A stretch of DNA of 64,000 nt from Flavobacterium crocinum. Lineage in GTDB: Bacteria; Bacteroidota; Bacteroidia; Flavobacteriales; Flavobacteriaceae. This document shows positions 3,025-37,519 of this stretch, one piece after another; within the stretch, counting starts at the first letter, position 1, and each line of letters starts with the position of its first letter. The notes under the pieces were generated by a model, which saw only the letters and a list, made by a program, of their open reading frames with translations, was not told where the DNA came from and did no database searches. The stretch lies in assembly GCF_003122385.1 (NCBI RefSeq), contig NZ_CP029255.1:1178001-1242000 (forward strand), given 5' to 3'. Position numbers and translations under genes: made by a program.

Positions 3025-4314
3025 TTAAGATCTATAATCAAAAAATCGAATTGGTTTTCTGCTCATAGGATTAAAAACCAACCGATTCAAAACTTCTTTT
3101 GAAGCAAATTCTATTTTTGGAGTTACTCTCAGTTTAGCTCTAAAATGATCTTTTATTTCTTGCAAAAATTCCGGAGTCTGATCTTTCACTGCAATTTTTA
3201 TGAGGATTTCATCTGTGCCTAAATCATTGGTAGAGATTTCTATCAAATGATTTTCGATATTATCAAAACTGCTCAAAACATCATTCATCGCTGGCGGATA
3301 CAAAGTTGTTCCTTTATATTTGATCATTTGTTTTTTACGACCAACTACAGGACCAACACGCAAAGTATTTCTGCCGCAAGCACAAGGTTCGTCATGAAAC
3401 TGAACCATATCTCCGGTTTTAAAACGCAATAACGGCATGGCTTCAATCCCTAAAGTAGTAAAAGTCAATTCGCCCGTTTCTCCGTTTTTTACAGGCTGAT
3501 TATTCTCGTCTAAAACTTCAACAATAATCAATTCAGGATGATGATGACCGCCTTTTCCGTGTTCACATTCTGTAAAAGCAGTACTCATTTCGGTAGAAGC
3601 ATAAGTCGAAAATAACTTAATATTCCATTTATCAGTGATTTTTTTCGATAGAATATTCATTGAGAAATCCTGTTCTCTCAAAGATTCTCCAATACAGATT
3701 GCCCCTTTTATGCTCGAATTATTATAATCGATTCCGTGAATTTCGGCATATTCAATTAATTTTAAAAGGAAAGAAGGAACCGTAATTAAATAAGACGGAT
3801 TGTATTTTAAAATCGAATCCCATTGCATTTCCGGAATTCCGGCTCCAACACGAATTACGCCGACTTTCAATTTTCGAAGGCCTAAAAAATAAGCCAAACC
3901 AGCCATAAATTTTCGGTCAATTGTTGTCATTAATTGTACCACATCTCCTTCCGCAATTCCCGCACAAGCAAAAGAAATAGCTTCGTTGTAAGCCAATCGG
4001 TCTAAGTCAGAATCGGTTAAACCAAAAGTTACGGGATCGCCTAAAGTTCCTGATGTTGAGGCATAATCTATGATTTGATTCTGCGGAACACACACAAAAT
4101 CATCATTATATTGCTGTAAATCTTCTTTGGTTGTAACAGGTAAATGCTGTAAATCTTCCAGCGTTTTAACTTTCGAAATATCAATATTTTGTCCCGCAAA
4201 AAGTCTTTTGTAAAAAGGAGAATTCTCGCTGATATATTCTAAAAGTTCAACTAGTTTTTTTTCTTGAAAAATTTTAATTTCTTCTAAAGAATCTTTTTCT
4301 ATTGCTGGAATCAT
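3025..4314 (-). CDS. Phenylacetate-CoA-ligase-like AMP-binding enzyme (aryl acid activation)
   Basis: 429 residues, the length of PaaK-type ligases. Visible signatures are the phosphate-binding loop YASTSGTLGDPVTFG, the block ATEMSTAFTECEHGKGGHHHPE, the GELTFTTLGIEAMPLLRFKTGD motif with the ATP-ribose Asp, and a CACGRN cluster before the C-terminal lid. PaaK relatives adenylate aryl acids and pass them to CoA or a carrier protein. In this cluster the natural substrate would be 4-coumarate made by the ammonia-lyase at 34647-36167; that is inference. It is the last gene of the long minus-strand run and overlaps the preceding gene by four bases (ATGA), so the two are translationally coupled. Confidence 0.88.
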   Translation of the reverse strand: MIPAIEKDSLEEIKIFQEKKLVELLEYISENSPFYKRLFAGQNIDISKVKTLEDLQHLPVTTKEDLQQYNDDFVCVPQNQIIDYASTSGTLGDPVTFGLTDSDLDRLAYNEAISFACAGIAEGDVVQLMTTIDRKFMAGLAYFLGLRKLKVGVIRVGAGIPEMQWDSILKYNPSYLITVPSFLLKLIEYAEIHGIDYNNSSIKGAICIGESLREQDFSMNILSKKITDKWNIKLFSTYASTEMSTAFTECEHGKGGHHHPELIIVEVLDENNQPVKNGETGELTFTTLGIEAMPLLRFKTGDMVQFHDEPCACGRNTLRVGPVVGRKKQMIKYKGTTLYPPAMNDVLSSFDNIENHLIEISTNDLGTDEILIKIAVKDQTPEFLQEIKDHFRAKLRVTPKIEFASKEVLNRLVFNPMSRKPIRFFDYRS

Positions 4315-5975
4315 TTTAATTTTCTTTTGACTTTTTTTAGATATTTTTCAATCTTTTCTTTATCCGGAACTGTTGTGATTTCAAGACTTAAAGCTTTTTC
4401 AAAATTAAGCTTCGCTTGTGCAAATTCCTTTTTTTGGTAAAAATACAATCCTGCTTTATAATACACAACCCAATAATCAGGGTTTAAGGATTGATAAAGC
4501 TTTAGAAATTCTGGAGAAATCGTTTCTTTCTTTACAAGAAGCGAATCTATTGTATGATCTTCAATTTTAAATTTTTTAAAATTCTGAAAAGCAGTGGTTT
4601 CTAAAAAAGGATCTTTGGCAATGTTCGAATTTTCTTTCTGAAAAGATTTTGTGTGAAGTTGATTTTCACCAAAAATTAAATTCAAATCATAACACACAAA
4701 CTCGCCCAATTGAAACGGATTTGCAGAAACCCAAACCAATTTTTCTTTTGGTTTAAAAATTATTCCGTGATGAGCGAGCAATTGATTTAATGCTTTTTCG
4801 TTTCCAAATCCTAATGAAATATTTTTTAAACCGTCTTTATTTCGTAGAATTTCCGAAGCAATCTTAGGATTTACTTTTGGATTTTCAGATAAAAGTTCCT
4901 GCATTCTTTCAAAGCGATATTCAGAATGACTGTTCGCAATTTGTTCCAGATTTCGTTTATCAGTTGCAAAAGCGTCGCCTTGAAAATGATTCGAACAAAT
5001 TAATTGGTCTGAATTTGGAACATTGTAAACATCCATTTTGTTGGGAGAAACTTCAATCAAAATGGCTTTATTATCATTGGCGCTTCCGACCATAATAGAT
5101 TCAGAAACAAATACTTTTCTCTTTTTTGCAATGGAAATGGCTTCATCTAAATTTTTGGCGTGTTGTAAAATTTCGCGTGTCAGAATTGAAATTGGAGTTT
5201 TTGCAACCAACGGAATTTTAGATTTTGAAGCATTTATCGTAACAGTCAAACCTTCGAGATTCATTCCTGAAACGGCGCCAATCATTCCCGGCCAGGTTAC
5301 CATCATAAACGGATGTCCTTCTTTTGGTTTTATAAAGGCCGCAATTTTATTTTCCGCGAAAGCGTCATTCACATAAAAATCAAAATTACGAGCCAGAATT
5401 AAATTTCCATCTTCTGATTTTTCGTTCCACGCCGCAAAAGAAGAACAGCCAACTAAAGCCAAATCTTGTAAAGCGTGTCCAATATCATGTGCGCCGTGCA
5501 GATACAAACCACGCTGGTATTTGGATGCAATGTTGTTAAATTCATCTGAAGAATATTCTGAAACGCCATAAATTTCTGTTTGATATTCATCGGGAACATT
5601 CAGGTATAATTTGCGATTGTACCAGTTTAGAAATCCTCTCAATAATTTTTGCTGGAATTTGGACGGAACAAAATCGGTTATTTTGGAAAAGAAAATATGC
5701 TGTTGTTTTTGTAAAAGAGAATCGGTTAATGCGCCAGTTGTCAATCCAATTTCAAGCGGATCGCCTTCTACATAAAGTTCCCAAAGTCCTTGTTTATTTT
5801 TTAAAAGTGAATTTTTCCCGGAAACAAAAATGCTGTCTGATATTTTGGTTACGACAGGTTTTGAATTATTAAAAGCAGTAAGATCCGGTTTATGATGTTT
5901 TGATTTTGATGTACCGCAGGAAGTCAGCAAACTGAAAAAACCGATAAGGAAGAAATAAATAATTCGGTTTTTCAT
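4311..5975 (-). CDS. C45-family acyltransferase/hydrolase-like lipoprotein with C-terminal TPR-like helices
   Basis: 554 residues. The N-terminus ends in LLTSCG, a lipoprotein box, so it is probably anchored to a membrane. The middle part has features of the Ntn-hydrolase peptidase C45/acyl-CoA:6-APA acyltransferase family: a Cys in LVGCSSFAAWNEKSEDG that should become the N-terminal nucleophile after self-cleavage, then LILARNFDFYV and the MTWPGMIGAVSGMNLEGLTVTINAS block. The last 60-70 residues (DYWVVYYKAGLYFYQKKEFAQAKLNFEKAL) look like TPR helices. Family members transfer or hydrolyse acyl groups, so a role in making or editing the flexirubin ester is plausible but unproven. Overlaps the ligase gene by four bases. 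Confidence 0.8.
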   Translation of the reverse strand: MKNRIIYFFLIGFFSLLTSCGTSKSKHHKPDLTAFNNSKPVVTKISDSIFVSGKNSLLKNKQGLWELYVEGDPLEIGLTTGALTDSLLQKQQHIFFSKITDFVPSKFQQKLLRGFLNWYNRKLYLNVPDEYQTEIYGVSEYSSDEFNNIASKYQRGLYLHGAHDIGHALQDLALVGCSSFAAWNEKSEDGNLILARNFDFYVNDAFAENKIAAFIKPKEGHPFMMVTWPGMIGAVSGMNLEGLTVTINASKSKIPLVAKTPISILTREILQHAKNLDEAISIAKKRKVFVSESIMVGSANDNKAILIEVSPNKMDVYNVPNSDQLICSNHFQGDAFATDKRNLEQIANSHSEYRFERMQELLSENPKVNPKIASEILRNKDGLKNISLGFGNEKALNQLLAHHGIIFKPKEKLVWVSANPFQLGEFVCYDLNLIFGENQLHTKSFQKENSNIAKDPFLETTAFQNFKKFKIEDHTIDSLLVKKETISPEFLKLYQSLNPDYWVVYYKAGLYFYQKKEFAQAKLNFEKALSLEITTVPDKEKIEKYLKKVKRKLK

Positions 5976-5982
5976 GATTTAA

Positions 5983-7500
5983 TTATTCAGAAGCTTTTTT
6001 AATTTTTTCCAGCAGATATTCTTTTCCTACAATTTCAGAGCAGGTTATGACGGCTCCAACCGTAACTCCCAAGACACCATGCATGTTAATACTTTGTCCT
6101 GTAAGATACAGATTTTCCAGTTTAGTTTTCGTCGGAATTAAAGTTTTCATCGGATTATTAGAATCTTTAACATATCCATACATATTTCCGCCGTCTCCGC
6201 CAATATAATCGCGGTAAGAAAGCGGAGTAGAAGTATGAATCGATTGGATACAATCTCTAATTCCAGGGAATTTTTTTTCAATTTGCTCCAAAAGCTTTTC
6301 GGCTTTTTCAGCTTTGAAATCCTCGTAACTTTTTCCACGTTCGTTTTCTTCAAAAGTGGTATTGAAAGTGTTTTCCCAAGCTTTTACATCATCATATTTC
6401 ATGTACGTCAAAAACGTCATTCCGTCTGCCCATTCTTCGTCTTTTTTGGACGGATTCATAGAAGCCATAAAAGTTTTCGGCCATGAATTATCATCATACT
6501 CATGAGCAGTCCAAACATCGTATGAACTTTTAAAATGATAATAATTATGATTGATGTATTTAAAAGTTCTAGGCTTAAAAACAATATAAAGACTAAAGGC
6601 AGAAAGAACACTTTCAAGACCTTGAATTCTATTGAAAAATGGCTTTCGGAAGTTTTCCTGACCGACCATTTTCAAAGTTGTTTTAGGCTCGATATTAGAA
6701 ATAAAAAGCTTTCCTGAAACCTCGGTTCCGTCTTTTATTTGTACCGACTTTACCTTTTGATTCTCAACTTCGATTTTAGTAACTTCTTTATGTTTAAAGA
6801 ATTCTCCTCCGTATTTTTTTAACTGTTTCAGAAGCTGTTTTGTAATCTGACTGCCTCCGTTAATACAACGCCACGAACTTTCGATATAAGAGTTTACAAC
6901 AAGTGCGTGAACATAAAAGGGCGATTTATCCGGAATTCCGGCATACAGAAAATTAGAACCCGCCAAAACTGCTTTCAGTTTTTCGTTTGAAGTAAAAGAA
7001 TCGATTGTCTCTTTCGCGTTAAGCGCTAAAATTTCATCATCATATTTTCCTTCCGATTCCAGATTATAAAGTGGAAAAGCTTTACATACCGACTTTATTT
7101 TTTGACAGTAATTTTCGAGATTTTCTTTTTCTTCGGGAAAATAAAAGGCTAATTGCTGAATGAAATTTTCAAACCCCTGCGCATGCGGATATTCAGTTTT
7201 ATCGTCTTCAAAAGAAATAATATCAAAACCATTTTCATCTAATTTCTTCAGATTCAAATGATCCATTATTCCGATGTATTTGAAATATTGATGGAGATTT
7301 TGACCTTCGTCTAAACCACCGATATAATGAATTCCGGTATCGAAAATGGTTTTATCGCGAACAAAAGTCTGAAGATTGCCTCCGTATTGATTGTTTTTTT
7401 CGAGTACACAAACACTGTAGCCTTCTTTTGCCAGAATAACAGCAGAAACCAATCCGCCTAAACCGCTACCAATGATGACTACATCGTACTCTTTTTTCAT
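5983..7500 (-). CDS. FAD-dependent oxidoreductase of the phytoene desaturase/CrtISO type
   Basis: 505 residues starting with a dinucleotide-binding motif (VVIIGSGLGGLVSAVILAKEGYSVCVLEKN) and ending with the C-terminal FAD motif LENLYLTGQSINMHGVLGVTVGA, as in carotenoid desaturases and isomerases. Such enzymes act on long polyenes at the membrane. Here the likely substrate is the aryl polyene chain, for isomerisation or oxidation, rather than a carotenoid, because no carotenoid genes are near; this is inference. The start codon overlaps the stop of the upstream MMPL gene by one base. Confidence 0.85.
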   Translation of the reverse strand: MKKEYDVVIIGSGLGGLVSAVILAKEGYSVCVLEKNNQYGGNLQTFVRDKTIFDTGIHYIGGLDEGQNLHQYFKYIGIMDHLNLKKLDENGFDIISFEDDKTEYPHAQGFENFIQQLAFYFPEEKENLENYCQKIKSVCKAFPLYNLESEGKYDDEILALNAKETIDSFTSNEKLKAVLAGSNFLYAGIPDKSPFYVHALVVNSYIESSWRCINGGSQITKQLLKQLKKYGGEFFKHKEVTKIEVENQKVKSVQIKDGTEVSGKLFISNIEPKTTLKMVGQENFRKPFFNRIQGLESVLSAFSLYIVFKPRTFKYINHNYYHFKSSYDVWTAHEYDDNSWPKTFMASMNPSKKDEEWADGMTFLTYMKYDDVKAWENTFNTTFEENERGKSYEDFKAEKAEKLLEQIEKKFPGIRDCIQSIHTSTPLSYRDYIGGDGGNMYGYVKDSNNPMKTLIPTKTKLENLYLTGQSINMHGVLGVTVGAVITCSEIVGKEYLLEKIKKASE

Positions 7501-10500
7501 TATTTTTTCTTTAAAATAACTAATGCATTTTCCTCAGAAACCATTTCAAAATTCTCAAACTGATAGTTTAAACCAGAACAATTCACTAAAATAATTAAAG
7601 AAGCAACAGGAGTTACTTTTTCAATTTCATCTTTATAACTTTCGTCAGAAATCAAAAGAACATCGTAATGATTTTCCAGCGATGATTCCAATTGATCTAA
7701 GTAAACTATTTTTCGCTTTGAAACAATGTAATTGGTTTTGGCCACCAATAATTTTTCTTCATCATTTATAAAAGAAACTATTTTACGCTGCGGTTCCTGC
7801 AAGGCTAATAAAACATCCAATTGTCCGTAATCATTTCCTAAATGCAGGATTTTTGCTTTTGGCTGAATGTGTTTATTTAAATTATAATAAACTTCAAGAT
7901 TCTGTTTTAAATCTTTTTTGACGCTGTTTCCAATTTCGATTTCTTTATAATCATAACTATTAATCAACATGGTTTTGAAATAGTCCGGACCTTCAAGCTG
8001 TTCACGGACTTTACGATATTCGGTTTTAAAGAATGCACTTATCAATTTTGTTCTTTCGGTATAATTTGTTCCAAAAGAATCATTATCGGGTGCAATTCTT
8101 TCTAAAATTGTAACCGTTAATTTTCCGTGATGAATGACAAAATCGCCTTTCGGAATTAGTTCTGAAGCTCCATGAATTACGACAGGAATAATATCCAGAT
8201 TGAATTCTTCTGCCAAGAAAAAAGCACCTTTATGGAATCTTTTCACCACATTATTTTCAGAACGTGTCCCTTCCGGAAATACCATTAAAGAATATCCTTG
8301 TTCTACTTTTTTTCGCAAATGTTCAACACCGCCCTCCAAACCTTCAGAAACGGGATAAAAACCGGCTTTTCTAACAACACCGCCAAAAATAGGAGAGTTG
8401 TAAACCCAGTCGCTTACCAGAAAAATAATTTTTGGACTTAACATTCCGATTGTCAGAATATCCAAAAATGAAGAATGATTGGCAATAATTACGGCTGGTT
8501 TCTCGAAAGTTTCATTGAAATTATTAATGACTCTTTTGCGAATAAACGGATTAGAGTACAATACTGATTTCATGAATTTTGAAATCACATATCGAAACGC
8601 TTTCATTTTTGCTTTTTTGCTGAAGGGCAAAATCGGCATAATGGTAAAACTGAAAATAGACATTACGATTCCGCCCAAACCATAATAAGCAAACGAAATT
8701 ACACCATGAACAAAAGTTCGCAATTGAAAAGGCGGATTTCCTTTTTTGGGACGATTCGAAAGAAATACTTTGAACAGAATCGGATAAAAAATGAAAGTGA
8801 TAATTAACGCTGCAAAGACTCCAATTAAGGAAACCAATGAAATAGAAGTAAGGGCGGGATGTTTGGCAAATATCATCGCACCAATTCCTAAGATTGTTGT
8901 AATTACTGCCAGAATAATTGAGGTTCTGTAAATCGCAATTTCGTTGACTCCGTTTGAATATTCTTTTTGTAAAGCACTGGTCATGAAAATACTGAAATCA
9001 ACTCCGTGACCGAAAATTAAGGTACAGACAATCATACTGAAAATATTCATCTGAATGCCAAAAATACCCATAATGCCAGCCGTTACAATTCCCGTTAGAG
9101 CAATTGGAATACAACTGATGATGACCAATTCGATTCTTCGGAAAAAGAAAAATAAAATCAGAATTACAGCAACAAATGAATAATTGACAAGCGAATTAAA
9201 ATCGGTTTTTAAAGTACTAAAAAACGTTTCGTTCATCTGCTGACGATCGATTGCCACTATATTTTCTTTTGCCGAAGCCGATTTTACAAAAGCGTCACGC
9301 TGTTCCGGCGCTACTTTTACTAATGTTGAAATCGTATAAAAACCATTTTTTTCTGTAATGAATTCTTGTAATTGTAAAGCTTTGATTTTTAAAAACTCGG
9401 AGGAAGAAACAGGTTTGAAATCAAAATTTAAATGATCAAAAAAGAGATTATAGGTTGTTGGCTTAAAGCCAAGTTTCGAACCCTCAGCAATCAATTCAGA
9501 TTTTACGAATTGTTTTTTTTGTGAAGTCCAGAATGAATTCCATTTATTTATTTTTTCGATTTGCGCTTGCTGCGAAAGTACAATACCGCCAACCGAACTA
9601 AAGTTCAGAATTTTGTTCTGCTGTTTTTCTTTTGCTAAATCTCCAAAAAGTTGGCTGTTGTGCTGTAAAGCTTCTTCCATAGTTTTTCCGTAAGAAGCGA
9701 CATAAATCGTTTTGGAAGTTAAACTGGTACTTTCTTCCAATTGTTTTTCGGCAGCTTTAATTTCTTTTGGAATAAAATTCAGCTGTGATAAATCATTATT
9801 AAAACCAACATCATTATAAGTAAAACAGCAGATAACGGTAATGATAACACAAAGTCCGATTAAGATTTTATTGTTATGAAAAGAAAAATGAGCCATTTTA
9901 TCGATCATATTCTTTTTATGTTCTGCCGGATTTTCGTGTGGTTTGTATAAATGTGGAACAATTAAAAGCGAGAAAATTCCAGTTGCCATTACAATCACAG
10001 CAGCAAAAATTCCCAAATCATTCAGCGCATCCGATTTTACAAAAAGAAGACATAAAAATGCAACGGCAGTTGTAGAACTGCTCATAATTACGGGCATCGT
10101 AATGTCTTTGTATAATGTTTTTACATCGCTGTTATGTTTGTAATGCGTAAGAATATGAATAGAATAATCAATCGTGATTCCCAATAAAATAGAACCAATT
10201 CCAAGAGAAATCGCTGAGATTTGTTCTCTAACGAAATATAAAAATGCCACAGCAAATAATCCTCCGAATACCGTTGGTAGAAAAATAATCAACGGAATTA
10301 AAACTTTTCGATAGAATAAAATTAAAATCAGCATTAAAGTAAACATCGCAATGGATGTCGTCAAAATAATATCACCTTTAATCTGATTGGCATTGGCAAC
10401 AGCAATTAAGGCAGAACCAAAATAACTGATGGAAGTTTTTCCTTTAAATTTCTGATTTAGATTTTCTTGAATTGATTGTAGTTTTTCTGCAAAAATGGTA

Positions 10501-11174
10501 TTCTTTTCGGTTTCGCTTGACGGAATATTCGATGTAATAAAAAGCAGTAATTTCTTTTTATCCTTTGTCATTACAAAACCATTTTCCAGTGTAAAATCGT
10601 CACCAATATTTAGCTGCTGTAATTTTTTTAAAGCAATAAAAGAAATTCCAAAAGGATCCTGCAGAATAAAATCTTTGGTAACAAACCCGGATGGAGAAAT
10701 AATCGATTTATAATTTCCTTGTACTGTCGCTGCAATGCTGTCTTTTTGCAGTTTTTGTTCAATGCTTTTATAATCTGCGTCATCCAGAAAAAGAGGCAGA
10801 TTGTTGTAAACAAAATCAATGGTTTCCTGAATATTTTCTTCGTCAACTTTTCCCTGAATTCCGGTTACGTAAGGTTTGCAGGATTTGGAAACACTGTCTG
10901 AAAAAGCGGTTGCCATTTCTTTTAAATCCTCAGCAGATCCTTTTTTTTCGAGTTTAAAAATGACAGTGGTTTTATCGGCAAAATTGAGTTGTTTCAGCAC
11001 TTTTGCCGTAACATCTGTTTTATCGTTTGTCGGGATAAGTTTGGTAATGTCTTCTTCAAATTTCAATCTTGAAGCGAAAAATCCAAAAACCAAAAGCATC
11101 AAAACAGCCAAAAAAACCGAGAGCGATTTTCTTCGGTTTACAAATAAATGAATGGCGTAAAAGTATTGATGCAT
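7500..11174 (-). CDS. MMPL/RND-type exporter fused to a PlsC acyltransferase and a C-terminal methyltransferase-like domain
   Basis: 1224 residues from the ATG at 11174; an in-frame GTG eight codons upstream lies in the flanking repeat and was not used. Residues about 1-790 form an MMPL transporter with two sets of membrane segments around large extracytoplasmic loops (SLGIGSILLGITIDYSIHIL and CTLIFGHGVDFSIFMTSAL repeats). Residues about 860-1060 are an acyl-glycerol-phosphate acyltransferase domain with NHSSFLDI (HX4D, His900) and FPEGTRS (966-972). The last 150 residues include ILHLGNDYGQLDVLLAL (about 1109-1125), resembling a degenerate SAM-binding motif. It probably moves lipid-like pigment or precursors and attaches an acyl chain. 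Three activities in one chain is unusual. Confidence 0.88.
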   Translation of the reverse strand: MHQYFYAIHLFVNRRKSLSVFLAVLMLLVFGFFASRLKFEEDITKLIPTNDKTDVTAKVLKQLNFADKTTVIFKLEKKGSAEDLKEMATAFSDSVSKSCKPYVTGIQGKVDEENIQETIDFVYNNLPLFLDDADYKSIEQKLQKDSIAATVQGNYKSIISPSGFVTKDFILQDPFGISFIALKKLQQLNIGDDFTLENGFVMTKDKKKLLLFITSNIPSSETEKNTIFAEKLQSIQENLNQKFKGKTSISYFGSALIAVANANQIKGDIILTTSIAMFTLMLILILFYRKVLIPLIIFLPTVFGGLFAVAFLYFVREQISAISLGIGSILLGITIDYSIHILTHYKHNSDVKTLYKDITMPVIMSSSTTAVAFLCLLFVKSDALNDLGIFAAVIVMATGIFSLLIVPHLYKPHENPAEHKKNMIDKMAHFSFHNNKILIGLCVIITVICCFTYNDVGFNNDLSQLNFIPKEIKAAEKQLEESTSLTSKTIYVASYGKTMEEALQHNSQLFGDLAKEKQQNKILNFSSVGGIVLSQQAQIEKINKWNSFWTSQKKQFVKSELIAEGSKLGFKPTTYNLFFDHLNFDFKPVSSSEFLKIKALQLQEFITEKNGFYTISTLVKVAPEQRDAFVKSASAKENIVAIDRQQMNETFFSTLKTDFNSLVNYSFVAVILILFFFFRRIELVIISCIPIALTGIVTAGIMGIFGIQMNIFSMIVCTLIFGHGVDFSIFMTSALQKEYSNGVNEIAIYRTSIILAVITTILGIGAMIFAKHPALTSISLVSLIGVFAALIITFIFYPILFKVFLSNRPKKGNPPFQLRTFVHGVISFAYYGLGGIVMSIFSFTIMPILPFSKKAKMKAFRYVISKFMKSVLYSNPFIRKRVINNFNETFEKPAVIIANHSSFLDILTIGMLSPKIIFLVSDWVYNSPIFGGVVRKAGFYPVSEGLEGGVEHLRKKVEQGYSLMVFPEGTRSENNVVKRFHKGAFFLAEEFNLDIIPVVIHGASELIPKGDFVIHHGKLTVTILERIAPDNDSFGTNYTERTKLISAFFKTEYRKVREQLEGPDYFKTMLINSYDYKEIEIGNSVKKDLKQNLEVYYNLNKHIQPKAKILHLGNDYGQLDVLLALQEPQRKIVSFINDEEKLLVAKTNYIVSKRKIVYLDQLESSLENHYDVLLISDESYKDEIEKVTPVASLIILVNCSGLNYQFENFEMVSEENALVILKKK

Positions 11175-21389: not shown

Positions 21390-21395
21390 TTTCAA

Positions 21396-27368: not shown

Positions 27369-27800
27369 TTATTTGGCTAAAACGGTTTTCATTTGTCCGT
27401 TTGCAATTTCTTCGTTATTTAATTTCGTCACAATATTTACTAAAGTAATTCCAGCAAACTCTTGTAAAATAGTTACTTCAGATTGAATGTTGTCGTTTAA
27501 TTGAGGCAGTTTTTTTATTTCAATTTCTTTAATAGAACCGATATAACCTGTTGGAGCAATTTCGTTTCTTAAAAAATATTGATAACCTGTATGCAATGCC
27601 ACAGACTGTGCCATGTGTTCAATTAAACCTGCTTCCAGAAAAATATTGTTTTCTACGAAAATATTTTCACTTTGAATTTTTAAACCAGAAACCAAAGAAG
27701 TTTCGGTATAAGAATGCATAGCGTCGACCATCACAAAAGGAAACTTTTGAGGCAGTAAATTTTCGACCATTTCTTTTTCTAAAAGCGCCATTGTCTCCAT
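27369..27800 (-). CDS. ApeP/FabZ-like hotdog dehydratase, second of a tandem pair
   Basis: 143 residues from the ATG at 27800, whose first base is the last base of the darB stop (TAATG); a second ATG three codons on is possible. A longer frame reaching 27968 would be inside darB and is rejected. Motifs: LLPQKFPFVMVDAMHS (FabZ-like N-terminus but with Gln in place of the His) and VENNIFLEAGLIEHMAQSVALHTGYQYF. Like its neighbour it lacks the HFP His, and here the alternative PHR His is lost too, so it may be an inactive partner of the product of 26899-27366. Confidence 0.78.
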   Translation of the reverse strand: METMALLEKEMVENLLPQKFPFVMVDAMHSYTETSLVSGLKIQSENIFVENNIFLEAGLIEHMAQSVALHTGYQYFLRNEIAPTGYIGSIKEIEIKKLPQLNDNIQSEVTILQEFAGITLVNIVTKLNNEEIANGQMKTVLAK

Positions 27801-28950: not shown

Positions 28951-29853
28951 CTAAACTCCCTGATAATATTGAGTTTGCTTTTTTATAGATTTTAACTTAA
29001 GCGGATAGGTAATAAGGTGCAATATATACACTATTGGTGAAATTAACCATATCGCAAGGAATAAATAAATATTAAATACTTTAAGCAACTGTTTTCGCTT
29101 TTTTTGATTTTTATAAATGATGTTTGACCACTTATTGAAAATTTTATTTGCCGTTTTATCGACAGTCACTAAATAGGAACTTATTTTTACAGCACCTGCG
29201 TTTACTAACTTCGGTTGCAAGTCATTTAAATTATTCTTGTTGAAAGAATCCAGCATAATTTCTCCAAACTGACTTGATTCTTCTATATCTTTATCTGAAA
29301 CTCCCGGAAGCGGAAAAATACCTAAATATTTTTTCTTAACTCCAGAAAACATCCATTCTACAATTGTGATGACGCTGATTAAGTTTCCAACGCGGTCTAC
29401 CAAAGCTACATTTCCAACCAATTTAGCGTTTGCTTCTTTCAGCAGGGTTTTAATTTTTTCCTGAGCCATAATCCACATGTTTCTTGAACCGCTGATGGTA
29501 ATAACAGGAGTATTATTTAATAGTTTTTTGGCATCGTCACTTTTCAAAAAGGAATTGATAGGAATAGAAGGAGATAAATACCAAACCTGATAATGAAAAA
29601 GGATCAAATCAAATTTTGTGTTTAAAATTTCTTCCGGAACTGGTTTTAATGCTGTCGGAATCTGTAAAAAAGATTCCGGGAATGCATCAAAAAAAGATTC
29701 CTTATTCCAGGGAAAAGGAAACGGCTTTTCTAATTGTATTTCGTGAAAAGTTACCTTTATATTCTCATCTTTTAAAAACGGTTTTGCAATTTGCTTTGCA
29801 ATAGTTTCCAGCTGCCCTGATTGAGAATAATAAATAACGAGAACATTTTTCAT
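28951..29853 (-). CDS. darA: Dialkylresorcinol condensing/aromatising enzyme DarA
   Basis: 300 residues. The N-terminus MKNVLVIYYSQSGQLETIAKQ is a flavodoxin-type phosphate-binding loop (residues 8-14), and LFHYQVWYLSPSIPINSFLKSD and VITISGSRNMWIMAQEKIK fit the other FMN contacts of the flavodoxin fold. Two hydrophobic segments lie near the C-terminus (about 255-285), suggesting membrane attachment. DarA works with DarB to make the dialkylresorcinol; it is thought to be the aromatase. A -7-type promoter element lies 27 bases upstream of its start. Confidence 0.87.
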   Translation of the reverse strand: MKNVLVIYYSQSGQLETIAKQIAKPFLKDENIKVTFHEIQLEKPFPFPWNKESFFDAFPESFLQIPTALKPVPEEILNTKFDLILFHYQVWYLSPSIPINSFLKSDDAKKLLNNTPVITISGSRNMWIMAQEKIKTLLKEANAKLVGNVALVDRVGNLISVITIVEWMFSGVKKKYLGIFPLPGVSDKDIEESSQFGEIMLDSFNKNNLNDLQPKLVNAGAVKISSYLVTVDKTANKIFNKWSNIIYKNQKKRKQLLKVFNIYLFLAIWLISPIVYILHLITYPLKLKSIKKQTQYYQGV

Positions 29854-30053: not shown

Positions 30054-30935
30054 TTATGCTTTTAAATCGTTCCAAAAATCAAAATAGTTAAACCATTGTA
30101 AAGGATATTGTCGCAGAATACTTTCTACACTGTTTACATATTCTTTCAGAAGACCTTTTTCGTCACGGTGTTTTACTGTCGCTTCTCTAGCGAATAAATG
30201 ATAATGAAGATTTGGCTCTTTCATTACATATACAAAAACAACAGGAACTTTTAATCTTGAAGCAATTAAAAATGGTCCGGCAGGAAAATTAGCTTCTTTG
30301 CCCAAAAGATTTTCAGAAAGAGATTTAGTGCCTTCAAAATAACGATCTCCTGTAAAACAAACCAATTCGTTATTGGCTAAAGCCGCGTTGATCTCAAAAA
30401 TATGAGACAAATCTTCTTTGATAATGATGAATTTTACGGTCGGTTTTTGCGTAACACTCTCTAAGTAATTCTTAATGGCAGAATGTTCTAAATCTGTTGT
30501 AACTAGATTGATTTGAAAATTGAGGTCAATGTCTCCCAAAAAGTGCTCGGCAATTTCAAAATTACCAACATGGGCACTAATTAAAACACCGCCTTTTTTT
30601 TCAGCAAGCAGTTTTTTGAGGGTTTCAATTCCGTCAAACTCATAAGTGAATTTGTTTCGCATTCCTGCTGAGATAGAAACTTTATCAATAATGGTTTGTC
30701 CAAAAGTGTAGTAACTTTTGAAAACCATTTTTTTAGATTTGAACCAGGAATACTGCAGCCTCTCTTTAAAATAATAAAAGATAGCACGATTGCTTTTCTT
30801 TAAAAATAAAAAGTAATAAGAAGCAACGAAATAAAGTAAGGCGTAAGCAGCTTTAACACCCGCTTTTTTAATCAAAAAAACGAATATTCTATAACCTAAA
30901 ACAGTTCCTTTTGATTTGCCATCCCATTGACTCAT
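30054..30935 (-). CDS. LpxL/HtrB-family lysophospholipid or lipid A acyltransferase
   Basis: 293 residues with one N-terminal membrane segment (about 22-42) and the HX4D/E-type motif SAHVGNFEIAE, followed by VCFTGDRYFEGTKS and FPAGPFLIASRLKVPVVFVYVMKEP, as in LpxL/HtrB acyltransferases. Members move an acyl chain from ACP to a lipid acceptor at the inner membrane. In this cluster it is a candidate for esterifying the aryl polyene acid to the resorcinol; the BtrH-like, PlsC and C45-type proteins are alternatives. It overlaps the ACP gene upstream by one base (TAATG), which fits an ACP-dependent reaction. Confidence 0.87.
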   Translation of the reverse strand: MSQWDGKSKGTVLGYRIFVFLIKKAGVKAAYALLYFVASYYFLFLKKSNRAIFYYFKERLQYSWFKSKKMVFKSYYTFGQTIIDKVSISAGMRNKFTYEFDGIETLKKLLAEKKGGVLISAHVGNFEIAEHFLGDIDLNFQINLVTTDLEHSAIKNYLESVTQKPTVKFIIIKEDLSHIFEINAALANNELVCFTGDRYFEGTKSLSENLLGKEANFPAGPFLIASRLKVPVVFVYVMKEPNLHYHLFAREATVKHRDEKGLLKEYVNSVESILRQYPLQWFNYFDFWNDLKA

Positions 30936-31189
30936 TAAGCTGATTTGGCTTTTATTTTAGTTTCAATAAGGTCATAAAAACTTTGGAAATCAGAAATTCC
31001 AACAAAATCTGCTTCAACTAGTTTTACGCCAAAGTTAGATTCAATTGAAACTACTAAATCAACATAATCTAAACTATCTAATCCAAGCGTATCTTTTAAA
31101 TTAGCATTTGGTTCAATGTCGTCATTATCAACTTCAAATTCATCAACTAAAAAACCATTAATTTTTGCTATAATCTCTTCTTTATTCAT
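30935..31189 (-). CDS. Acyl carrier protein (second of two in the cluster)
   Basis: 84 residues, acidic, with phosphopantetheine motif LGLDSLDYVDLVVSIE (Ser39). It overlaps the acyltransferase gene by one base and the upstream KAS gene by eight bases, so KAS, ACP and acyltransferase are a tight translational unit. Confidence 0.94.
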   Translation of the reverse strand: MNKEEIIAKINGFLVDEFEVDNDDIEPNANLKDTLGLDSLDYVDLVVSIESNFGVKLVEADFVGISDFQSFYDLIETKIKAKSA

Positions 31190-32417
31190 CGTTCAATTTA
31201 AACTTTTTAACCACCAACGCCGAGTTGGTTCCTCCAAACCCGAAAGAATTGGACAAAAATATGTCAAATTTTTTGTTTAACGTAACTTTAACTAAATTTA
31301 ATTTTGAAGCATCTTCGTCTGGATTTTCTAAATTGATGTTTGGTGCAATGAAATCGTTCTGCATCATTAAGATAGAATAAATAATTTCACTTGCTCCAGC
31401 CATCCAGCATTCGTGGCCTGTCATTGATTTGGTAGAACTTACAGGCGGATTTTTTTCGCCAAAGACTTCAAAAATCGCTTTGGCTTCGTTTGCATCACCA
31501 ACCGGAGTTGAAGTTGCATGTGCATTTATATATTCAATGTCTGAAGCTTGTAATTGCGCATCATCAAGAGCTCTTTTCATAGCTGTTGCAGGTCCTTCAA
31601 CGTTTGGAGTAGAAATATGCCCACCATTTGATGAAAATCCGTAACCGCCGATTTCGGCAATAATGTTGGCGCCACGTGCGATGGCTGATTCATAACTTTC
31701 CAAAATTAAAGTAGCCCCGCCACCACTCGGAATTAATCCGTCTCGACCAGAATCGAAAGGTCTTGATGCTTTTTCAGGATCGCTTTCTCTGTTGGAAAAA
31801 ACACCTAATCCGTCAAAACTGCTCATGGCATATTTGTTAATTTCCTGAGCACCGCCCGTAATTACGATGTCCTGAAAACCGCTTTTAATTAAAAAATAAG
31901 CTAAACCAATAGAATGTGAACCGCTCGCACAAGCTGCACTTACAGTTAAATTGATTCCTCTAAGTTTAAAAATAGTAGAAAGATTCATGGTAACTGTAGA
32001 ATTCATCGACTTGAAAATCGCACCAGAACCAATAAGAGCGGTGTCTTTTTTCTCGCGGACAATATCTGTAGCGTCAATGATTGCTTTAGAAACACTATCA
32101 TTTCCGTACATAATACCTACTTCACGTTCGTCAAAAAAGGCATCGTCAATATTAGCATTTTTTAATGCTTCAATAGTAGCCATATAAGCATACTCGGTTT
32201 CTTCACCGATGCTCATACGCTGTCTGCGTGTCAATAGATTTTTTAAATCAGCTTTCGGAACCATTCCTGTAAGGGCCGATTGAAAACCAAATTCTTTTCG
32301 CTCAGAATCAAACTGAATACCAGATTTTCCTTGGTACAAAGAATCCTTTACTTCGTCTAAAGAAGTTCCGATACAAGAATAAATTCCCATTCCAGTAATT
32401 ACAACTCGTCTATTCAT
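31182..32417 (-). CDS. Beta-ketoacyl-ACP synthase (KAS I/II type), third active enzyme
   Basis: 411 residues, the standard KAS II length, with Cys163 in TVSAACASGSHSI, His in NAHATSTPVGD, His in SMTGHECWMAGASE and NSFGFGGTNSALVV near the end. It keeps the full triad and is the most FabF/FabB-like of the set. It should elongate the ACP-bound chain. Upstream lies a 190-base space with a palindromic repeat; a TACTTTTG element on the minus strand at 32425-32432 is very close to the ATG and uncertain as a promoter. Confidence 0.92.
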   Translation of the reverse strand: MNRRVVITGMGIYSCIGTSLDEVKDSLYQGKSGIQFDSERKEFGFQSALTGMVPKADLKNLLTRRQRMSIGEETEYAYMATIEALKNANIDDAFFDEREVGIMYGNDSVSKAIIDATDIVREKKDTALIGSGAIFKSMNSTVTMNLSTIFKLRGINLTVSAACASGSHSIGLAYFLIKSGFQDIVITGGAQEINKYAMSSFDGLGVFSNRESDPEKASRPFDSGRDGLIPSGGGATLILESYESAIARGANIIAEIGGYGFSSNGGHISTPNVEGPATAMKRALDDAQLQASDIEYINAHATSTPVGDANEAKAIFEVFGEKNPPVSSTKSMTGHECWMAGASEIIYSILMMQNDFIAPNINLENPDEDASKLNLVKVTLNKKFDIFLSNSFGFGGTNSALVVKKFKLNDE

Positions 32418-32607: not shown

Positions 32608-33339
32608 TTAAGAATATATTCCGCCGTTAATATTGATAATTTCTCCTGTAATATAACTTGCTTTTTTAGAAATCAAAAAGCTTACCAAATCTGCAACTTC
32701 TTCGGCTTCGCCAAAACGATTTACCGGAATCAGTTTCAGTAGTTCTTTTTCGTCCAGTTCACTTGTCATATCTGTTTTAATAAAACCAGGAGCAACAGCA
32801 TTCACTGTAATATTTCGTTTTGCCACTTCTTGTGCCAATGCTTTTGTAGCAGCAACAATAGCGCCTTTTGCAGCCGAATAATTGGTTTGTCCAGCAGTTC
32901 CTTTTAATCCGGAAACAGAAACAATATTTACAATTCGGCCGTATTTGTTACGAAGCATTTTTTGAATAAAAAATTGCGTTACATTAAAAAAACCGTTTAC
33001 ACTTGTATTCATCACGTTGTTCCAATCCTGTGGTGTCATCCACATAAAAAGACCATCTTTTGTAATTCCGGCATTATTTACAATCGCTTCTACCAATTTT
33101 TCAGGATTGGCTTCCTGCCATTGCGTAAGAACGTTTTGTACTTGATCAAAATCGGCAACATCAAAACCTAGAATTTCTCCTGTTGCACCTAATTTTTGAA
33201 TTTCTTGTAATGTTTCTTCGGCAGCTGTTTTATTCGAATGATAATTAATCAGAATATGATAATCGGATTCTACGGCTAATTTTTTACAAATAGCACTTCC
33301 GATTCCTCTCGAACCGCCTGTTACTAATACACACTTCAT
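32608..33339 (-). CDS. fabG: 3-oxoacyl-ACP reductase (FabG-like SDR)
   Basis: 243 residues. SDR motifs are complete: TGGSRGIGSAICKKL (NADP site), NNAGITKDGLFMWM, SVSGLKGTAGQTNYSAAKGA (Ser, Tyr, Lys) and the end GEIININGGIYS. It should reduce the 3-keto group in each elongation cycle of the polyene; followed by dehydration and no enoyl reduction this gives conjugated double bonds. Nine bases separate it from the WG-repeat gene upstream. It is a cluster copy rather than the housekeeping FabG. Confidence 0.92.
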   Translation of the reverse strand: MKCVLVTGGSRGIGSAICKKLAVESDYHILINYHSNKTAAEETLQEIQKLGATGEILGFDVADFDQVQNVLTQWQEANPEKLVEAIVNNAGITKDGLFMWMTPQDWNNVMNTSVNGFFNVTQFFIQKMLRNKYGRIVNIVSVSGLKGTAGQTNYSAAKGAIVAATKALAQEVAKRNITVNAVAPGFIKTDMTSELDEKELLKLIPVNRFGEAEEVADLVSFLISKKASYITGEIININGGIYS

Positions 33340-33348: not shown

Positions 33349-34575
33349 TTATTTCTTTTTCTTAGCTGCCGGTTTCGGTGTCGATTTCGCAGCTGGTTTG
33401 CTTGTTTTTGTTTCTTGTTTTGGTGCTTCTGTCGGAGCTGCGACAGGTTGTGGTTTTTCAGATTTCGAAAACAATTCAGCGTTTTCAAACCATTGGTTGG
33501 CTAAAACTGTCCCATCCGGTTTAAGAAATCCCCATTTCCCTTCGTTTTTTACTCTTGCTACGCCACTGATAAATCCTTTATCTTGTTGTGTAAACATCGC
33601 AATAATTGCATTTGTAGTAATACCGTATTGTGTTGGAATGACCAATTTTCCAGATTCGTTAATGAATCCCCAGTTGCTTTCTTTTACCGGAGCTAAACCG
33701 TTTGTACTGAAAACTTCTGCATCGCTGTAAGTTGGTTCAATAACAAATTTTCCTTCCGGATTGATAAACCCCCATTTTTTTCCAACTAAAACGGGCGCCA
33801 GATTTTTTGAGAACGCTTTTCCTTTATCATAAATAGGAAGAATTGCCCAATTTCCTTTTAAATCAATATAACCAATTTTTCCGTTCTTTTTGGCATAAGT
33901 TAAATCCTGAGTTTCGAAATCCCAGATTTTTTCAGCTCCATCAACCGGAATAAATTTCCCGCCGCTTACTAATCCAAAAGTTTTGTCTTTTCTGGCCCAG
34001 GTAGTTCCTTTAAAATAATTTCCAATTTCGGCATAAGCAGGTTCAACCAGTTCTTTTCCTTCCGTATTGATAATTCCCCAGTTTTTATTTAATTCTACTC
34101 TCGCATATCCATTTTCAAAAGGCTTGATCTGATCGTATTTTGGTTCCAGAACAACAGTCATTTTGTTGTTAATTAAACCGACTTTATTGTTTTGTCTGAT
34201 AAAAGCAACTCCATCATTAAAATCAAAAACTTTTTCAGTAGCAGGAGCTTTTTGAATTTCACCTTTTGTATTGATATAAACCCACTCTTTATCTTTTTGT
34301 ACAACTGCAATTCCGTTGTTAAAATCTTTCGCATCTTTAAAGTCGGCTGGAATAACCCAAGTTCCTTTCGTATCGATAAATCCCCATTTTCCGCCATTTT
34401 CTACAGCAGCCAAACCTTCAGAAAAACTTCTGGCCGATTTGTATTGTGGTTCGATTTTAAAAGATCCGTCTTTAGAAAGATATCCAATTTTGGAGTTCTT
34501 TTTAACTAATGCCAATTCCTGACTATTAACAAATTGAATACTTACCAGCAGTAAAAAAATAAGTGTCTTTTTCAT
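33349..34575 (-). CDS. WG-repeat exported protein with Lys/Pro/Ala-rich tail
   Basis: 408 residues: signal peptide (MKKTLIFLLLVSIQFVNS), then about nine or ten WG-type repeats of 30-45 residues each (KWGFIDTKGTWVIP, NWGIINTEGKELVEP, KWGFINPEGKFVIEP, NWGFINESGKLVIP, KWGFLKPDG), then a low-complexity tail rich in Lys, Pro and Ala ending in four Lys. WG repeats form beta-propeller-like or solenoid folds of unknown role. It has no known part in pigment synthesis, but the nine-base gap to fabG suggests shared transcription. Confidence 0.88.
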   Translation of the reverse strand: MKKTLIFLLLVSIQFVNSQELALVKKNSKIGYLSKDGSFKIEPQYKSARSFSEGLAAVENGGKWGFIDTKGTWVIPADFKDAKDFNNGIAVVQKDKEWVYINTKGEIQKAPATEKVFDFNDGVAFIRQNNKVGLINNKMTVVLEPKYDQIKPFENGYARVELNKNWGIINTEGKELVEPAYAEIGNYFKGTTWARKDKTFGLVSGGKFIPVDGAEKIWDFETQDLTYAKKNGKIGYIDLKGNWAILPIYDKGKAFSKNLAPVLVGKKWGFINPEGKFVIEPTYSDAEVFSTNGLAPVKESNWGFINESGKLVIPTQYGITTNAIIAMFTQQDKGFISGVARVKNEGKWGFLKPDGTVLANQWFENAELFSKSEKPQPVAAPTEAPKQETKTSKPAAKSTPKPAAKKKK

Positions 34576-34646: not shown

Positions 34647-36167
34647 CTAACTGTTGATCAAATAATCTTTTACCTTTTGGACAAAAGGATACATTACCTG
34701 ATCTTCTTTAAATGTTGGAATTATATTTCGGATATCTTCGTACCATTTTTTAGTAACCGATGAAATTTTACCTTTTTGGTCTAAATAATCAATTGCCTGA
34801 GCGATTGTGATTAATTCGATTGCTAAAACTTCAAAAGAGTTTTCGATTACTTTAGCAGTCATCACGGCAGCATTTGTTCCCATACTCACAATGTCCTGAT
34901 TGTCATTGTTGTTTGGAATACTGTGCACATACATTGGGTTAGATAATGTCTGACTTTCTGCAGTTGTTGATGTAGCAACGAACTGAACGCCCTGCATTCC
35001 AAAGTTAAATCCTAAAGTTCCTAAGTTTACAAATGGAGGAAGCAATTCGTTAATTTTTGAATTCAATAAATAATTCAATTGACGCTCTGCCAGCATCGTT
35101 AATTTAGTGATAACGATTTTCAGTTTATCCATTTCAAGCGAAATATAATCTCCGTGGAAATTTCCTCCGTGGTAAACGTGCTGATTTTTTACGTCGATAA
35201 TTGGGTTATCGTTTGCAGAGTTAAATTCGTCTTCCAAAATAGAAGCTACATTATTTATAGTTTCTAAAACAGGCCCCAAAATTTGAGGAACGCATCTTAA
35301 TGAATAATATTCCTGAACTTTTTCTTTGAAGATTTCTTCTGTGTTTTCTCCAGAATATAAATGGTCTTCTCTTTTACGGATTAAAGTACTGTCAGAAAGA
35401 TTTGTTCTCATTCTTTCCGCCACTTCCTGTTGTCCTTTATGGCGTTTCGTTTGATTTAATTCCTGAGAAAAATGATCGTCATATGCCTGTACCAATTCGT
35501 TGATTGCACAAGAAGCTTTTAATGACCAGTCTAATAATTTTTGAGCATAATGAACATTTACAACACCAATTCCTGTCATTACAGAAGTTCCGTTGATCAA
35601 TGCCAGACCTTCTCTAATTTCTACCTGAATTGGTTTTAATCCTTCGATTTCAAAAACTTCAGCCGTTGCGCGTCTTTCTCCTTTATAAAAAACTTCACCT
35701 TCACCAATTAAGACTAAAGCTAAATGTGATAACTGAACTAAATCTCCACTTGCTCCAACACCGCCGTGTTCAAAAATTAAAGGCGTAATATCTCTATTGA
35801 TTAATTCTGCCATTAAATGAATAACAGAAGGATGAACTCCTGAATTTCCTAAAGAAAGTGTATTTAATCTTGCTAAAATAGCTGCTTTTGCACATTCTGG
35901 ATTTAAAGGTTTTCCTGTTCCGGAAGAGTGGCTTCTAATTAAATTATACTGTAACTGAATTTGATCAGACTCTTTAATTCTATATTGAGCCATTGGACCA
36001 AAGCCAGTATTTACTCCGTAGATTACTTTGTTTCCTGAGAATTCTTTCAGGAAATTAAAACTTTCGTTTACTCGATTTAAGACCACATCGCTTATGGCAA
36101 CTTTGTTTTTTCCAAAGATTATGGCTTCAAATTCTGCTAAACTTAAATATTCATTTATTGTATTCAT
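34647..36167 (-). CDS. Tyrosine ammonia-lyase (aromatic amino acid lyase, MIO family)
   Basis: 506 residues from the ATG at 36167; one codon upstream there is a TTG. The MIO prosthetic group forms from Ala139-Ser140-Gly141 in GGVGASGDLVQLSHLAL, and VIYGVNTGFGP carries the catalytic Tyr. From memory the protein is nearly identical to the characterised tyrosine-specific F. johnsoniae enzyme, starting MNTINEYLS. The selectivity pair is Ser79-His80 (IRSHSSGTG), which by the usual rule would point to histidine, so that rule seems not to hold in this group. It turns tyrosine into 4-coumarate, the starter of the aryl polyene. It is divergent from the flavin monooxygenase gene. Confidence 0.92.
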   Translation of the reverse strand: MNTINEYLSLAEFEAIIFGKNKVAISDVVLNRVNESFNFLKEFSGNKVIYGVNTGFGPMAQYRIKESDQIQLQYNLIRSHSSGTGKPLNPECAKAAILARLNTLSLGNSGVHPSVIHLMAELINRDITPLIFEHGGVGASGDLVQLSHLALVLIGEGEVFYKGERRATAEVFEIEGLKPIQVEIREGLALINGTSVMTGIGVVNVHYAQKLLDWSLKASCAINELVQAYDDHFSQELNQTKRHKGQQEVAERMRTNLSDSTLIRKREDHLYSGENTEEIFKEKVQEYYSLRCVPQILGPVLETINNVASILEDEFNSANDNPIIDVKNQHVYHGGNFHGDYISLEMDKLKIVITKLTMLAERQLNYLLNSKINELLPPFVNLGTLGFNFGMQGVQFVATSTTAESQTLSNPMYVHSIPNNNDNQDIVSMGTNAAVMTAKVIENSFEVLAIELITIAQAIDYLDQKGKISSVTKKWYEDIRNIIPTFKEDQVMYPFVQKVKDYLINS

Positions 36168-36203
36168 CAAATCGATTTTGGTTGCGCTAATTTAATTTTA
36201 TTT

Positions 36204-36268: not shown

Positions 36269-37519
36269 ATGACAAAGGAGTTTGTTGATGTTTTAGTGAT
36301 TGGTGCAGGACCATCCGGATGTGTTTCGGCATCATATCTTTTTAAAAACAATGTTAAGGTTAAAGTAGTAGAAAAACAAAAGTTCCCGAGACTTGTTGTT
36401 GGCGAAAGCCTTATTCCGCGTGTTATGGATCATTTTGCTGAAGCAGAATTGTTTGATGCGCTTGATGCCATGAACTTCGAGAAAAAATTAGGCGCTCGTT
36501 TTATTAGAGGAGAAGAAATCTGCAATTTTGATTTCAGTGTAAAATTTGGAGAAGGCTGGGATTGGACCTGGCAGGTTCCTCGTGCTGATTTCGATAATAC
36601 AATGGCACAGGAAATTGTACGTAAAGGAATCGATTTGGAATTTGAAACAGAAGTTTTAGAGGTTTCTTTTGAAGGAAAAAACTCAAAAACTATTGTAAAA
36701 GACAAAGACGGAAATCTGAAAGAAATTCACGCTAAATTTATCATCGATTCAAGCGGATACGGACGTGTTTTACCAAGACTTTTAGATTTGGATACGCCTT
36801 CAAAATTAGATCCGCATTCTTCTATTTTTACGCATGTAAAAGATATAAACAGAGAAGAAGGTGTAGAGGGAACTCAAATTTCTTTTGATATTCTGGAAAC
36901 AGAAGTCTGGCTTTGGGTAATTCCGTTTTCTAACGGAAATACCAGTTTAGGAGTTGTTGGGCCAACTGATTTTATCAATTCGCTTTCTGAAAATAAAGAT
37001 AATGCGGAGGCTTTACGAAATGCTATTCAGAAATCAGATTATTATATTAAAAGATTTGCCGGAACAGAATTTTTATTTGAGCCGGTTAAATTAGAAAACT
37101 ACTCAAGAGCCGTAAAAAGAATGTATGGCGATGGTTTTGCGTTAACAGGAAACAGTTCAGAATTCTTAGATCCGGTTTTCTCATCAGGAGTAGCTTTTGC
37201 AACGGAATCCGGAATGCTGGCGGCAAAATTATACTTAAAAGAATCACAAGGAATTCCTGTTGATTGGGAAGTGGAATTTACACAATACATGAAACGCGGC
37301 ATTGCTGTTTTCACCACTTATGTACAAGAATGGTACACAGGAAATTTACAGACTTTGTTTTTCCATCAGCCGGAAAACCCAGAAGTAAAAGAAAAAATAT
37401 GTGCTGTTTTAGCAGGTTATGTCTGGAACGAAGAAAATTCGTTTGTCAAGAAACACGATCACGTAATTGCGAATATGGCGTATTTACTGAATATGCAAAA
37501 AGAACAAAGCCCTGAATGA
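36269..37519 (+). CDS. Flavin-dependent monooxygenase/halogenase-family protein
   Basis: 416 residues, the only plus-strand gene of the cluster. The N-terminal FAD motif is VLVIGAGPSGCVSASYL, followed by VVGESLIPR, KKLGARF, and WLWVIP (Trp214, Trp216, Pro219), the WxWxIP motif of tryptophan-halogenase-type enzymes. Family members chlorinate or hydroxylate aromatic rings; flexirubins can carry ring hydroxyl, methyl or chlorine groups, so it likely modifies the aryl end, and which reaction cannot be decided by eye. A Lys at about position 73 could correspond to the halogenase catalytic Lys, but the alignment is uncertain. Its end overlaps a terminator hairpin. Confidence 0.85.
   Translation: MTKEFVDVLVIGAGPSGCVSASYLFKNNVKVKVVEKQKFPRLVVGESLIPRVMDHFAEAELFDALDAMNFEKKLGARFIRGEEICNFDFSVKFGEGWDWTWQVPRADFDNTMAQEIVRKGIDLEFETEVLEVSFEGKNSKTIVKDKDGNLKEIHAKFIIDSSGYGRVLPRLLDLDTPSKLDPHSSIFTHVKDINREEGVEGTQISFDILETEVWLWVIPFSNGNTSLGVVGPTDFINSLSENKDNAEALRNAIQKSDYYIKRFAGTEFLFEPVKLENYSRAVKRMYGDGFALTGNSSEFLDPVFSSGVAFATESGMLAAKLYLKESQGIPVDWEVEFTQYMKRGIAVFTTYVQEWYTGNLQTLFFHQPENPEVKEKICAVLAGYVWNEENSFVKKHDHVIANMAYLLNMQKEQSPE

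Follow-up and report, generated by a model that had tools for sequence, protein, structure and literature searches.

How is the aryl polyene joined to the dialkylresorcinol (DAR) in a flexirubin, and is this ester the only product of a flexirubin gene cluster? Both questions are raised by the genome of Flavobacterium crocinum, a single contig of 5.88 Mb (NZ_CP029255.1). We analyzed a window of 64,000 nucleotides (positions 1,178,001 to 1,242,000), in which a cluster of 34.5 kb occupies positions 3025–37519 (window coordinates here and below). Open reading frames (ORFs) at 3025–36170 lie on the minus strand, the one at 36269–37519 on the plus strand. The cluster encodes four acyltransferase-type candidates, namely a C45-family protein, a PlsC domain, the BtrH-like DarH and an LpxL-type enzyme, and the initial annotation had left open which of them makes the ester. 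Comparison across genomes now favors DarH as the likely candidate. Our best explanation is a composite cluster of three blocks, in which DarH joins polyene and resorcinol and an envelope block stands apart; we assign this explanation as a whole a probability of roughly 0.72.

The proteins of the cluster were compared with Pfam gene by gene, and 20 proteins including neighbors with NCBIfam. The models for FlxA, FlxY, DarB, DarG, DarH and LolB2 all scored above their curated cut-offs, and the full cluster with its four acyltransferase candidates recurred in 19 of 29 compared loci, which bears out the initial description of a complete flexirubin-type cluster with these four candidates. To the earlier gene list we add a plus-strand gene resembling flavin-dependent halogenases, the fusion of PlsC to an MMPL exporter and an export signal on the C45 protein. 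Judged by gene content, the cluster is a composite of three separable blocks. The tyrosine-derived aryl polyene synthase comprises the tyrosine ammonia-lyase (TAL) FlxA (34647–36170; NF053541, 900 bits, cut-off 700), a FlxY-type AMP-dependent ligase predicted to activate 4-coumarate (3025–4314; NF053551, 750 bits, cut-off 520) and a ketosynthase (KS), chain-length factor (CLF), ketoreductase (KR), dehydratase (DH) and acyl carrier protein (ACP) set that is complete by Pfam. The DAR block holds DarB (27800–28933; NF053539, 674 bits, cut-off 550), the aromatase DarA (28951–29853), the small protein DarG (26172–26576; NF053545, 209 bits, cut-off 170), DarH (25173–26171; NF053550, 522 bits, cut-off 300) and the permease (23138–24421; PF12698) and ATPase (24411–25163; PF00005) of an ABC-2 exporter. 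DarA carries its name by position beside DarB, its one match being a weak one to flavodoxin below every curated cut-off.

The third block, which we call the envelope block, contains the C45 lipoprotein (4311–5975; NF040521, 228 bits, cut-off 85; PF03417), the MMPL exporter–PlsC acyltransferase fusion (7500–11174; PF03176, PF01553), a GT2 glycosyltransferase with a DUF2062 domain (11340–12515; Pfam) and the LpxL-type acyltransferase (30054–30935; PF03279). Also assigned to it are the lipoprotein LolB2 (15288–15923; NF053540, 268 bits, cut-off 60), the periplasmic carrier LolA2 (15889–16560; PF03548), a polysaccharide deacetylase (16636–17412; PF01522) and a phytoene-desaturase-like FAD-dependent oxidoreductase (5983–7500; PF01593), which matched carotenoid desaturase/isomerase models below cut-off. 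Motifs were intact in the TAL (ASG), the ACPs (DSI/DSL), PlsC (HSSFLD) and LpxL (HVGNFE).

Which acyltransferase follows the resorcinol genes was analyzed in 395 Bacteroidota genomes, with 14 named genomes as controls. DarB exceeded its cut-off in 30 of the 395 genomes and DarH in 31, i.e., the same 30 and G017, where DarB reaches 519 bits beside DarA; in the controls, neither did (0/14). Below-cut-off DarH-like matches occurred in G158 (one) and, as a second copy, in G210, G265 and G269. C45 was found in 31 of the 395 genomes (E up to 1e-30) and the MMPL-PlsC query in 33 (E up to 1e-40). G099 and G391 are DarH-positive and lack both C45 and MMPL. Conversely, G118 and G238 are DarH-negative and possess C45, the MMPL envelope block and polyene genes; the MMPL match of G118 stops before the PlsC part, and close to the DarB-like ketosynthase of G238 (499 bits), no DarA was seen. 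G347 and G394 contain MMPL without C45.

A second set of 29 genomes was chosen by DarH and searched whole. These genomes came from 80 loci, the best 80 of at least 549 confirmed in a scan with a DarH alignment. As it is DarH-selected, this set is uninformative on how often DarH is absent, which the 395-genome set covers. C45 and MMPL-PlsC occurred in the same 15 genomes and neither in the other 14 (11 Mucilaginibacter, one Chitinophagaceae isolate, one Flavitalea and one Arachidicoccus metagenome-assembled genome). C45 is hence present in 44 of 60 DarH-positive genomes and absent from 16. LpxL was found in none of these 16 and in 13 of 13 C45-positive genomes (29 genomes in all, 21 from the DarH-selected set and eight from the 395). 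TAL exceeded its cut-off in 60/60 DarH-positive genomes as well as in G118 and G238, but not in G394 and G347 (64 genomes); among the controls it did so in 1/14. The supposition of the initial annotation that a single product requires every gene of the cluster was therefore abandoned, since DarH and the envelope block are separable across genomes: 16 genomes with DarH and TAL lack C45, MMPL-PlsC and LpxL, and G118 and G238 keep the block without DarH. C45 was confined to MMPL-positive genomes without exception across 424 genomes at the E limits used; by these counts it follows the envelope block rather than DarH. Two Mucilaginibacter genomes (G398 and G400; loci L094 and L098) do contain C45, MMPL-PlsC and LpxL, unlike their close relatives, and in G398 these genes lie on a contig separate from TAL. 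Within the best 80 DarH loci (flanks of 10 kb, several ending at contig ends), DarG was nearby in 78, DarB in 75, the ABC ATPase in 75, the permease in 74 and DarA in 73.

The E. coli CFT073 ape cluster, against whose 18 Ape proteins we ran the window family profiles, shares with the window KS, CLF, KR, DH, ACPs, thioesterase, LolA, MMPL, PlsC and GT2 plus LpxL. In E. coli, GT2 (residues 7–235; E 4.8e-49) and LpxL (residues 247–550; E 4.1e-38) form a single chain, ApeJ, whereas they are two genes in the window. Conversely, MMPL (ApeM, 2.5e-44) and PlsC (ApeD, 1.9e-19) are separate in E. coli and fused in the window. With LolA2 matching ApeL (2.6e-14), the block thus contains relatives of the ape-type aryl polyene lipid module. 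In contrast, the DarH, DarG, DarA, ABC and C45 models matched none of the 18 proteins (E up to 1), and the DarB model gave only a weak match, to the ketosynthase ApeR. ApeA, ApeB, ApeG, ApeH and ApeN were matched by no window family; the LolB2 model missed ApeN and the AMP-ligase model missed ApeH. For E. coli, a role of ApeD and ApeJ in linking the polyene to a membrane anchor was proposed (PMC8253772, in its accessible text). As their relatives occur in a cluster in which DAR genes were not found, PlsC and LpxL would have a resorcinol-independent role, with the envelope block probably belonging to a branch of its own that leads to polyene lipids.

DarH combines BtrH_N and DUF4872 domains, as do the BtrH/CtaG/CcbD carrier-protein acyltransferases. 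Its predicted model (pLDDT 90.4) matches CtaG, AziU2-U3 and CcbD over the whole length including the C-terminal helical domain, at about 11–16% identity to CtaG, AziU2-U3, CcbD and BtrH; sequence searches of the PDB with DarH or a DarH profile did not find CtaG or CcbD. C13, H126 and D142 are invariant in 26/26 and 49/49 sequences. They correspond to C11/H128/D144 of CtaG by spacing only, and in an alignment of three DarH with three distant BtrH_N proteins, Cys and His were invariant and the Asp column was not. The N-terminus has no apparent signal. The closest relatives among the best 120 of 8000 matches are Flavobacterium proteins of 95% identity. NCBIfam already labels DarH a BtrH-related acyltransferase, and what we add is a comparative test. 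Our searches of the literature on flexirubin and darH, which mostly left subscription papers outside, found no experimental test of DarH. Because DarH co-occurs with DarB, has no ape relative, shows whole-length matches to CtaG, AziU3 and CcbD and keeps an invariant Cys-His-Asp, it is the likely ester enzyme.

From the genes present, their co-occurrence, the fold predicted for DarH and its conserved residues, as described above, we infer the following route. The polyene would be initiated by TAL and FlxY and built on a carrier protein by the KS/CLF/KR/DH/ACP set, while DarB and DarA would make the DAR. DarH, as a cytoplasmic cysteine acyltransferase, most likely takes over the polyenoyl group from the carrier protein onto C13 and then acylates the resorcinol at a phenol oxygen, yielding the flexirubin ester. 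The linked ABC-2 exporter would then move the ester out. The envelope block, with C45, PlsC, LpxL, MMPL, GT2, LolA/LolB and the deacetylase, would handle polyene for the outer membrane, whether or not resorcinol is made.

Alternatively, an exported C45 protein could form the ester outside the cytoplasm, from a lipid-linked polyene onto exported resorcinol, with DarH only aiding export. C45 family members are annotated as acyltransferases/hydrolases, and besides its curated match the protein has a conserved cysteine, the presumed nucleophile C177, invariant in 26/26 sequences; self-cleavage is predicted. Its presence in 44 of 60 DarH-positive genomes and two exporters per cluster, as if the halves left the cell separately, would fit as well. 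However, 16 of the 60 genomes do without C45, G118 and G238 have it without DarH, and at the E limits used it was always accompanied by MMPL. Its N-termini are hydrophobic, followed in 21 of 26 sequences by a lipobox-type SCG/ACG (16 by pattern, five by eye; the window protein has LTSC), and the other five appear by eye to be membrane anchors. C45 is therefore probably extracytoplasmic and would hardly encounter an ACP thioester, and we consider it quite an improbable ester enzyme. Even less can be said for the PlsC domain or the LpxL-type enzyme, which we regard as highly improbable: their motifs are intact and both occur in 19/19 full clusters, but both have E. coli ape relatives without DAR genes and both are absent from the 16 DarH-positive genomes that lack C45.

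DarH might also be a C39-like peptidase or a chain-release factor for the ABC exporter, another enzyme, for example of KS or hotdog type, then forming the ester. The ABC genes (74–75 of 80 loci) and DarG (78 of 80) are near DarH as well, and co-occurrence alone hence cannot separate ester formation from export. Against this stand the whole-length match to CtaG, AziU2-U3 and CcbD, C-terminal helical domain included, and the finding of a 4HBT protein in only two of the best 80 DarH loci within 10-kb flanks; we deem a peptidase or release role unlikely. A single-product reading, finally, is compatible with DarH as ester synthase: the envelope block would anchor or transport flexirubin itself, and other machinery would substitute where the block is absent. 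LolA2/LolB2 have been reported from flexirubin loci (PMC11885536, accessible part), and the blocks stand together in the 19 full clusters. Yet the block accompanies polyene genes in G118 and G238, which lack DarH, and resembles E. coli ape genes, which leaves this reading at somewhat below even odds.

Several points weigh against DarH as ester synthase and a separate envelope block. To our knowledge, characterized CtaG/CcbD/BtrH relatives form amides, not phenol esters; for CtaG, amide formation is a proposal in the literature. The linkage of DarG and the ABC genes to DarH, as said, leaves export as a role. Moreover, 14 of the 16 block-lacking genomes were drawn from the DarH-selected set. A quick DarB and DarH tree (55 rows) needs three changes for the envelope block, e.g., one loss and two regains, and as the genomes without the block fall essentially into a single clade, which includes two block-bearing members, independent events are few. 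In the literature searched, we found no flexirubin phenotype for the block-lacking genomes, mainly Mucilaginibacter. Schoner et al. suggested instead the ligase-like FlxW for the ester (PMC3992019), and the main text of that paper does not mention BtrH. By gene order, the C45 gene could correspond to FlxW or FlxX.

The cluster type as such is already known (BGC0000838/0000839; PMC8570120, PMC9248904, in part). The F. johnsoniae flexirubin cluster (BGC0000838; DarB Fjoh_1102), reported at 37 kb, likewise unites dar and polyene genes (PMC3992019), and its LolB2/LolA2 genes Fjoh_1084/1085 are adjacent as in the window (PMC11885536). This likeness follows the published descriptions in their accessible parts, the gene-by-gene comparison having used 19 other full clusters. 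Chitinophaga pinensis also has TAL and a 4-coumarate-CoA ligase, both biochemically shown there, as well as polyene and dar genes, though with flx and dar in two loci rather than one, and its darA and darB gave DAR in a heterologous host (PMC3992019, accessible text). For Azoarcus, the available part of PMC3949708 describes arc/dar clusters in which, as in the window, darAB has a BtrH-like gene, the genes of an ABC exporter and a conserved hypothetical gene in its vicinity. There, the polyene starter is 3- or 4-hydroxybenzoic acid, the published table annotates no C45 among its 35 listed genes, and the arcuflavin pigment was proposed to be a polyene–DAR ester. Gene letters differ: the BtrH-like gene is darE in Azoarcus and DarH in NCBIfam, while darH there is another gene. 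The flexirubin test was positive for F. geliluteum, whose cluster is 88% similar, and negative for F. flabelliforme, for which no flexirubin genes were predicted (PMC8570120, as far as accessible). Compared with CtaG, AziU2-U3, CcbD and BtrH, DarH is alike in whole-length fold and Cys-His-Asp spacing and would differ in forming a phenol ester.

The 29 loci were taken from 35 high-scoring DarB or DarB-like places. The 19 full clusters, with the four acyltransferase candidates and DarA/B/G/H, comprise 12 of family f1 and seven of f2. In six further loci the DAR genes are retained but arranged differently, G017 among them having DarG/DarH on a separate contig, and four contain a DarB-like ketosynthase alone. 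DarA is present in G017 and in all 24 compared loci whose DarB exceeds the cut-off; LolA2/LolB2 were not seen in the G324 locus of this comparison. In G182 (C12), G280 and G254 (L058–L062), DarB-like domains lie in open frames of 617–675 aa, with DarA/DarH not nearby. Plasmids of Prevotella, Bacteroides and Phocaeicola (NZ_CP072340, NZ_CP103211 and NC_015165; L083, L084 and L086) carry a lone DarB-like ketosynthase, 44–46% identical to the window DarB, directly 3′ of a TetR-type or helix-turn-helix regulator, as well as mobilization genes. These genera were not among the matches listed in a DarH search of the plasmid collection. Regulator and ketosynthase possibly form a small-molecule signal/receptor pair on mobile plasmids.

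Apart from DarB, the window encodes four ketosynthase-type proteins, and a motif scan found the KS Cys motif in all but the CLF-type one (17409–18473; PF00109). The others are ApeO-like (18473–19672; PF00109/PF02801; ApeO 3.6e-82), a second ketosynthase (21396–22544; PF00109/PF02801) and an ApeR-like third (31182–32417; PF00109; ApeR 3.1e-104). Two ACPs, ApeE-like (19857–20114; PF00550; ApeE 3.6e-25) and ApeF-like (30935–31189; PF00550; ApeF 1.4e-20), a FabG-type, ApeQ-like ketoreductase (32608–33339; PF00106; ApeQ 3e-80), a FabA/ApeI-like dehydratase (13020–13391; PF07977; ApeI 3.4e-12) and an ApeK-like 4HBT thioesterase (22714–23163; PF13279; ApeK 1.1e-29) complement them. Two FabZ-like hotdog proteins (26899–27366 and 27369–27968) matched NCBIfam FabZ models below cut-off only, the second from residue 66, with its true start probably near 27800. 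Locus comparison further showed a conserved 161-aa protein (12532–13017), found beside DarA in many distant clusters, and, within the polyene block, a conserved protein of 205 aa (20117–20734). Variable across loci are three outer-membrane beta-barrel paralogues (13397–14035, 14040–14651 and 14657–15250; PF13568/PF13505), of which other loci have one, two or no copies, a lineage-specific WG-repeat protein (33349–34575; PF14903; 12/12 full f1 clusters, 0/7 of f2) and small ORFs. Two of the latter, at 20751–21395 (in 1/29 loci) and 26586–26906 (5/29), may be recent insertions or spurious.

The divergent halogenase-like gene beyond TAL (36269–37519; PF04820) has the motif WTWQVP, shared by 21/21 relatives scoring above 200 bits. 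It also occurs in the DarH-lacking G118 and is a possible candidate for chlorination of the flexirubin head-group ring. For DarG, a regulator or scaffold role may be considered: the best fold match of its C-terminal half, a possible Cro/SinR-like helix-turn-helix, has E 0.02, and none with E 0.001 or better was found. In the MMPL-PlsC gene, 13 of 33 relatives have one or two stops in the aligned frame, mostly with near full-length open frames, so that ATG 11174 rather than GTG 11198 is probably the start. Its last ~150 residues resemble a degenerate methyltransferase by eye, with no Pfam match. Promoter scans (sigma-70-type; TAnnTTTG) gave matches at chance level. The flank at 39792–57804 contains sugar-catabolism-like genes (altronate dehydratase, sugar symporter, galactose genes, arabinofuranosidases, FGGY kinase), and a tRNA-Leu lies at 62269–62349.

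In the chemotaxonomy of Bacteroidetes, flexirubins serve as a standard marker, for which, in the sources accessible to us, the enzyme joining polyene and resorcinol is so far a suggestion only (FlxW). The comparison yields a prediction at the level of a single gene, darH with its C13, and a reason for the presence of the other three acyltransferases. On this basis, these bacteria would also be expected to make a second polyene lipid. We may tentatively speculate that one polyene has two competing ends: DarH, then the first enzyme of the CtaG/CcbD group to acylate a phenol oxygen, would direct it to flexirubin, and the ApeJ/ApeD-like block to an overlooked aryl polyene glycolipid, which would be the C45 substrate. 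If so, the outer membrane of classical flexirubin bacteria would contain two polyene pigments, and just one of these has been described so far. Likewise, an ester-forming enzyme of the CtaG/CcbD type would extend this family from amides, which are the products as far as we know, to phenol esters.

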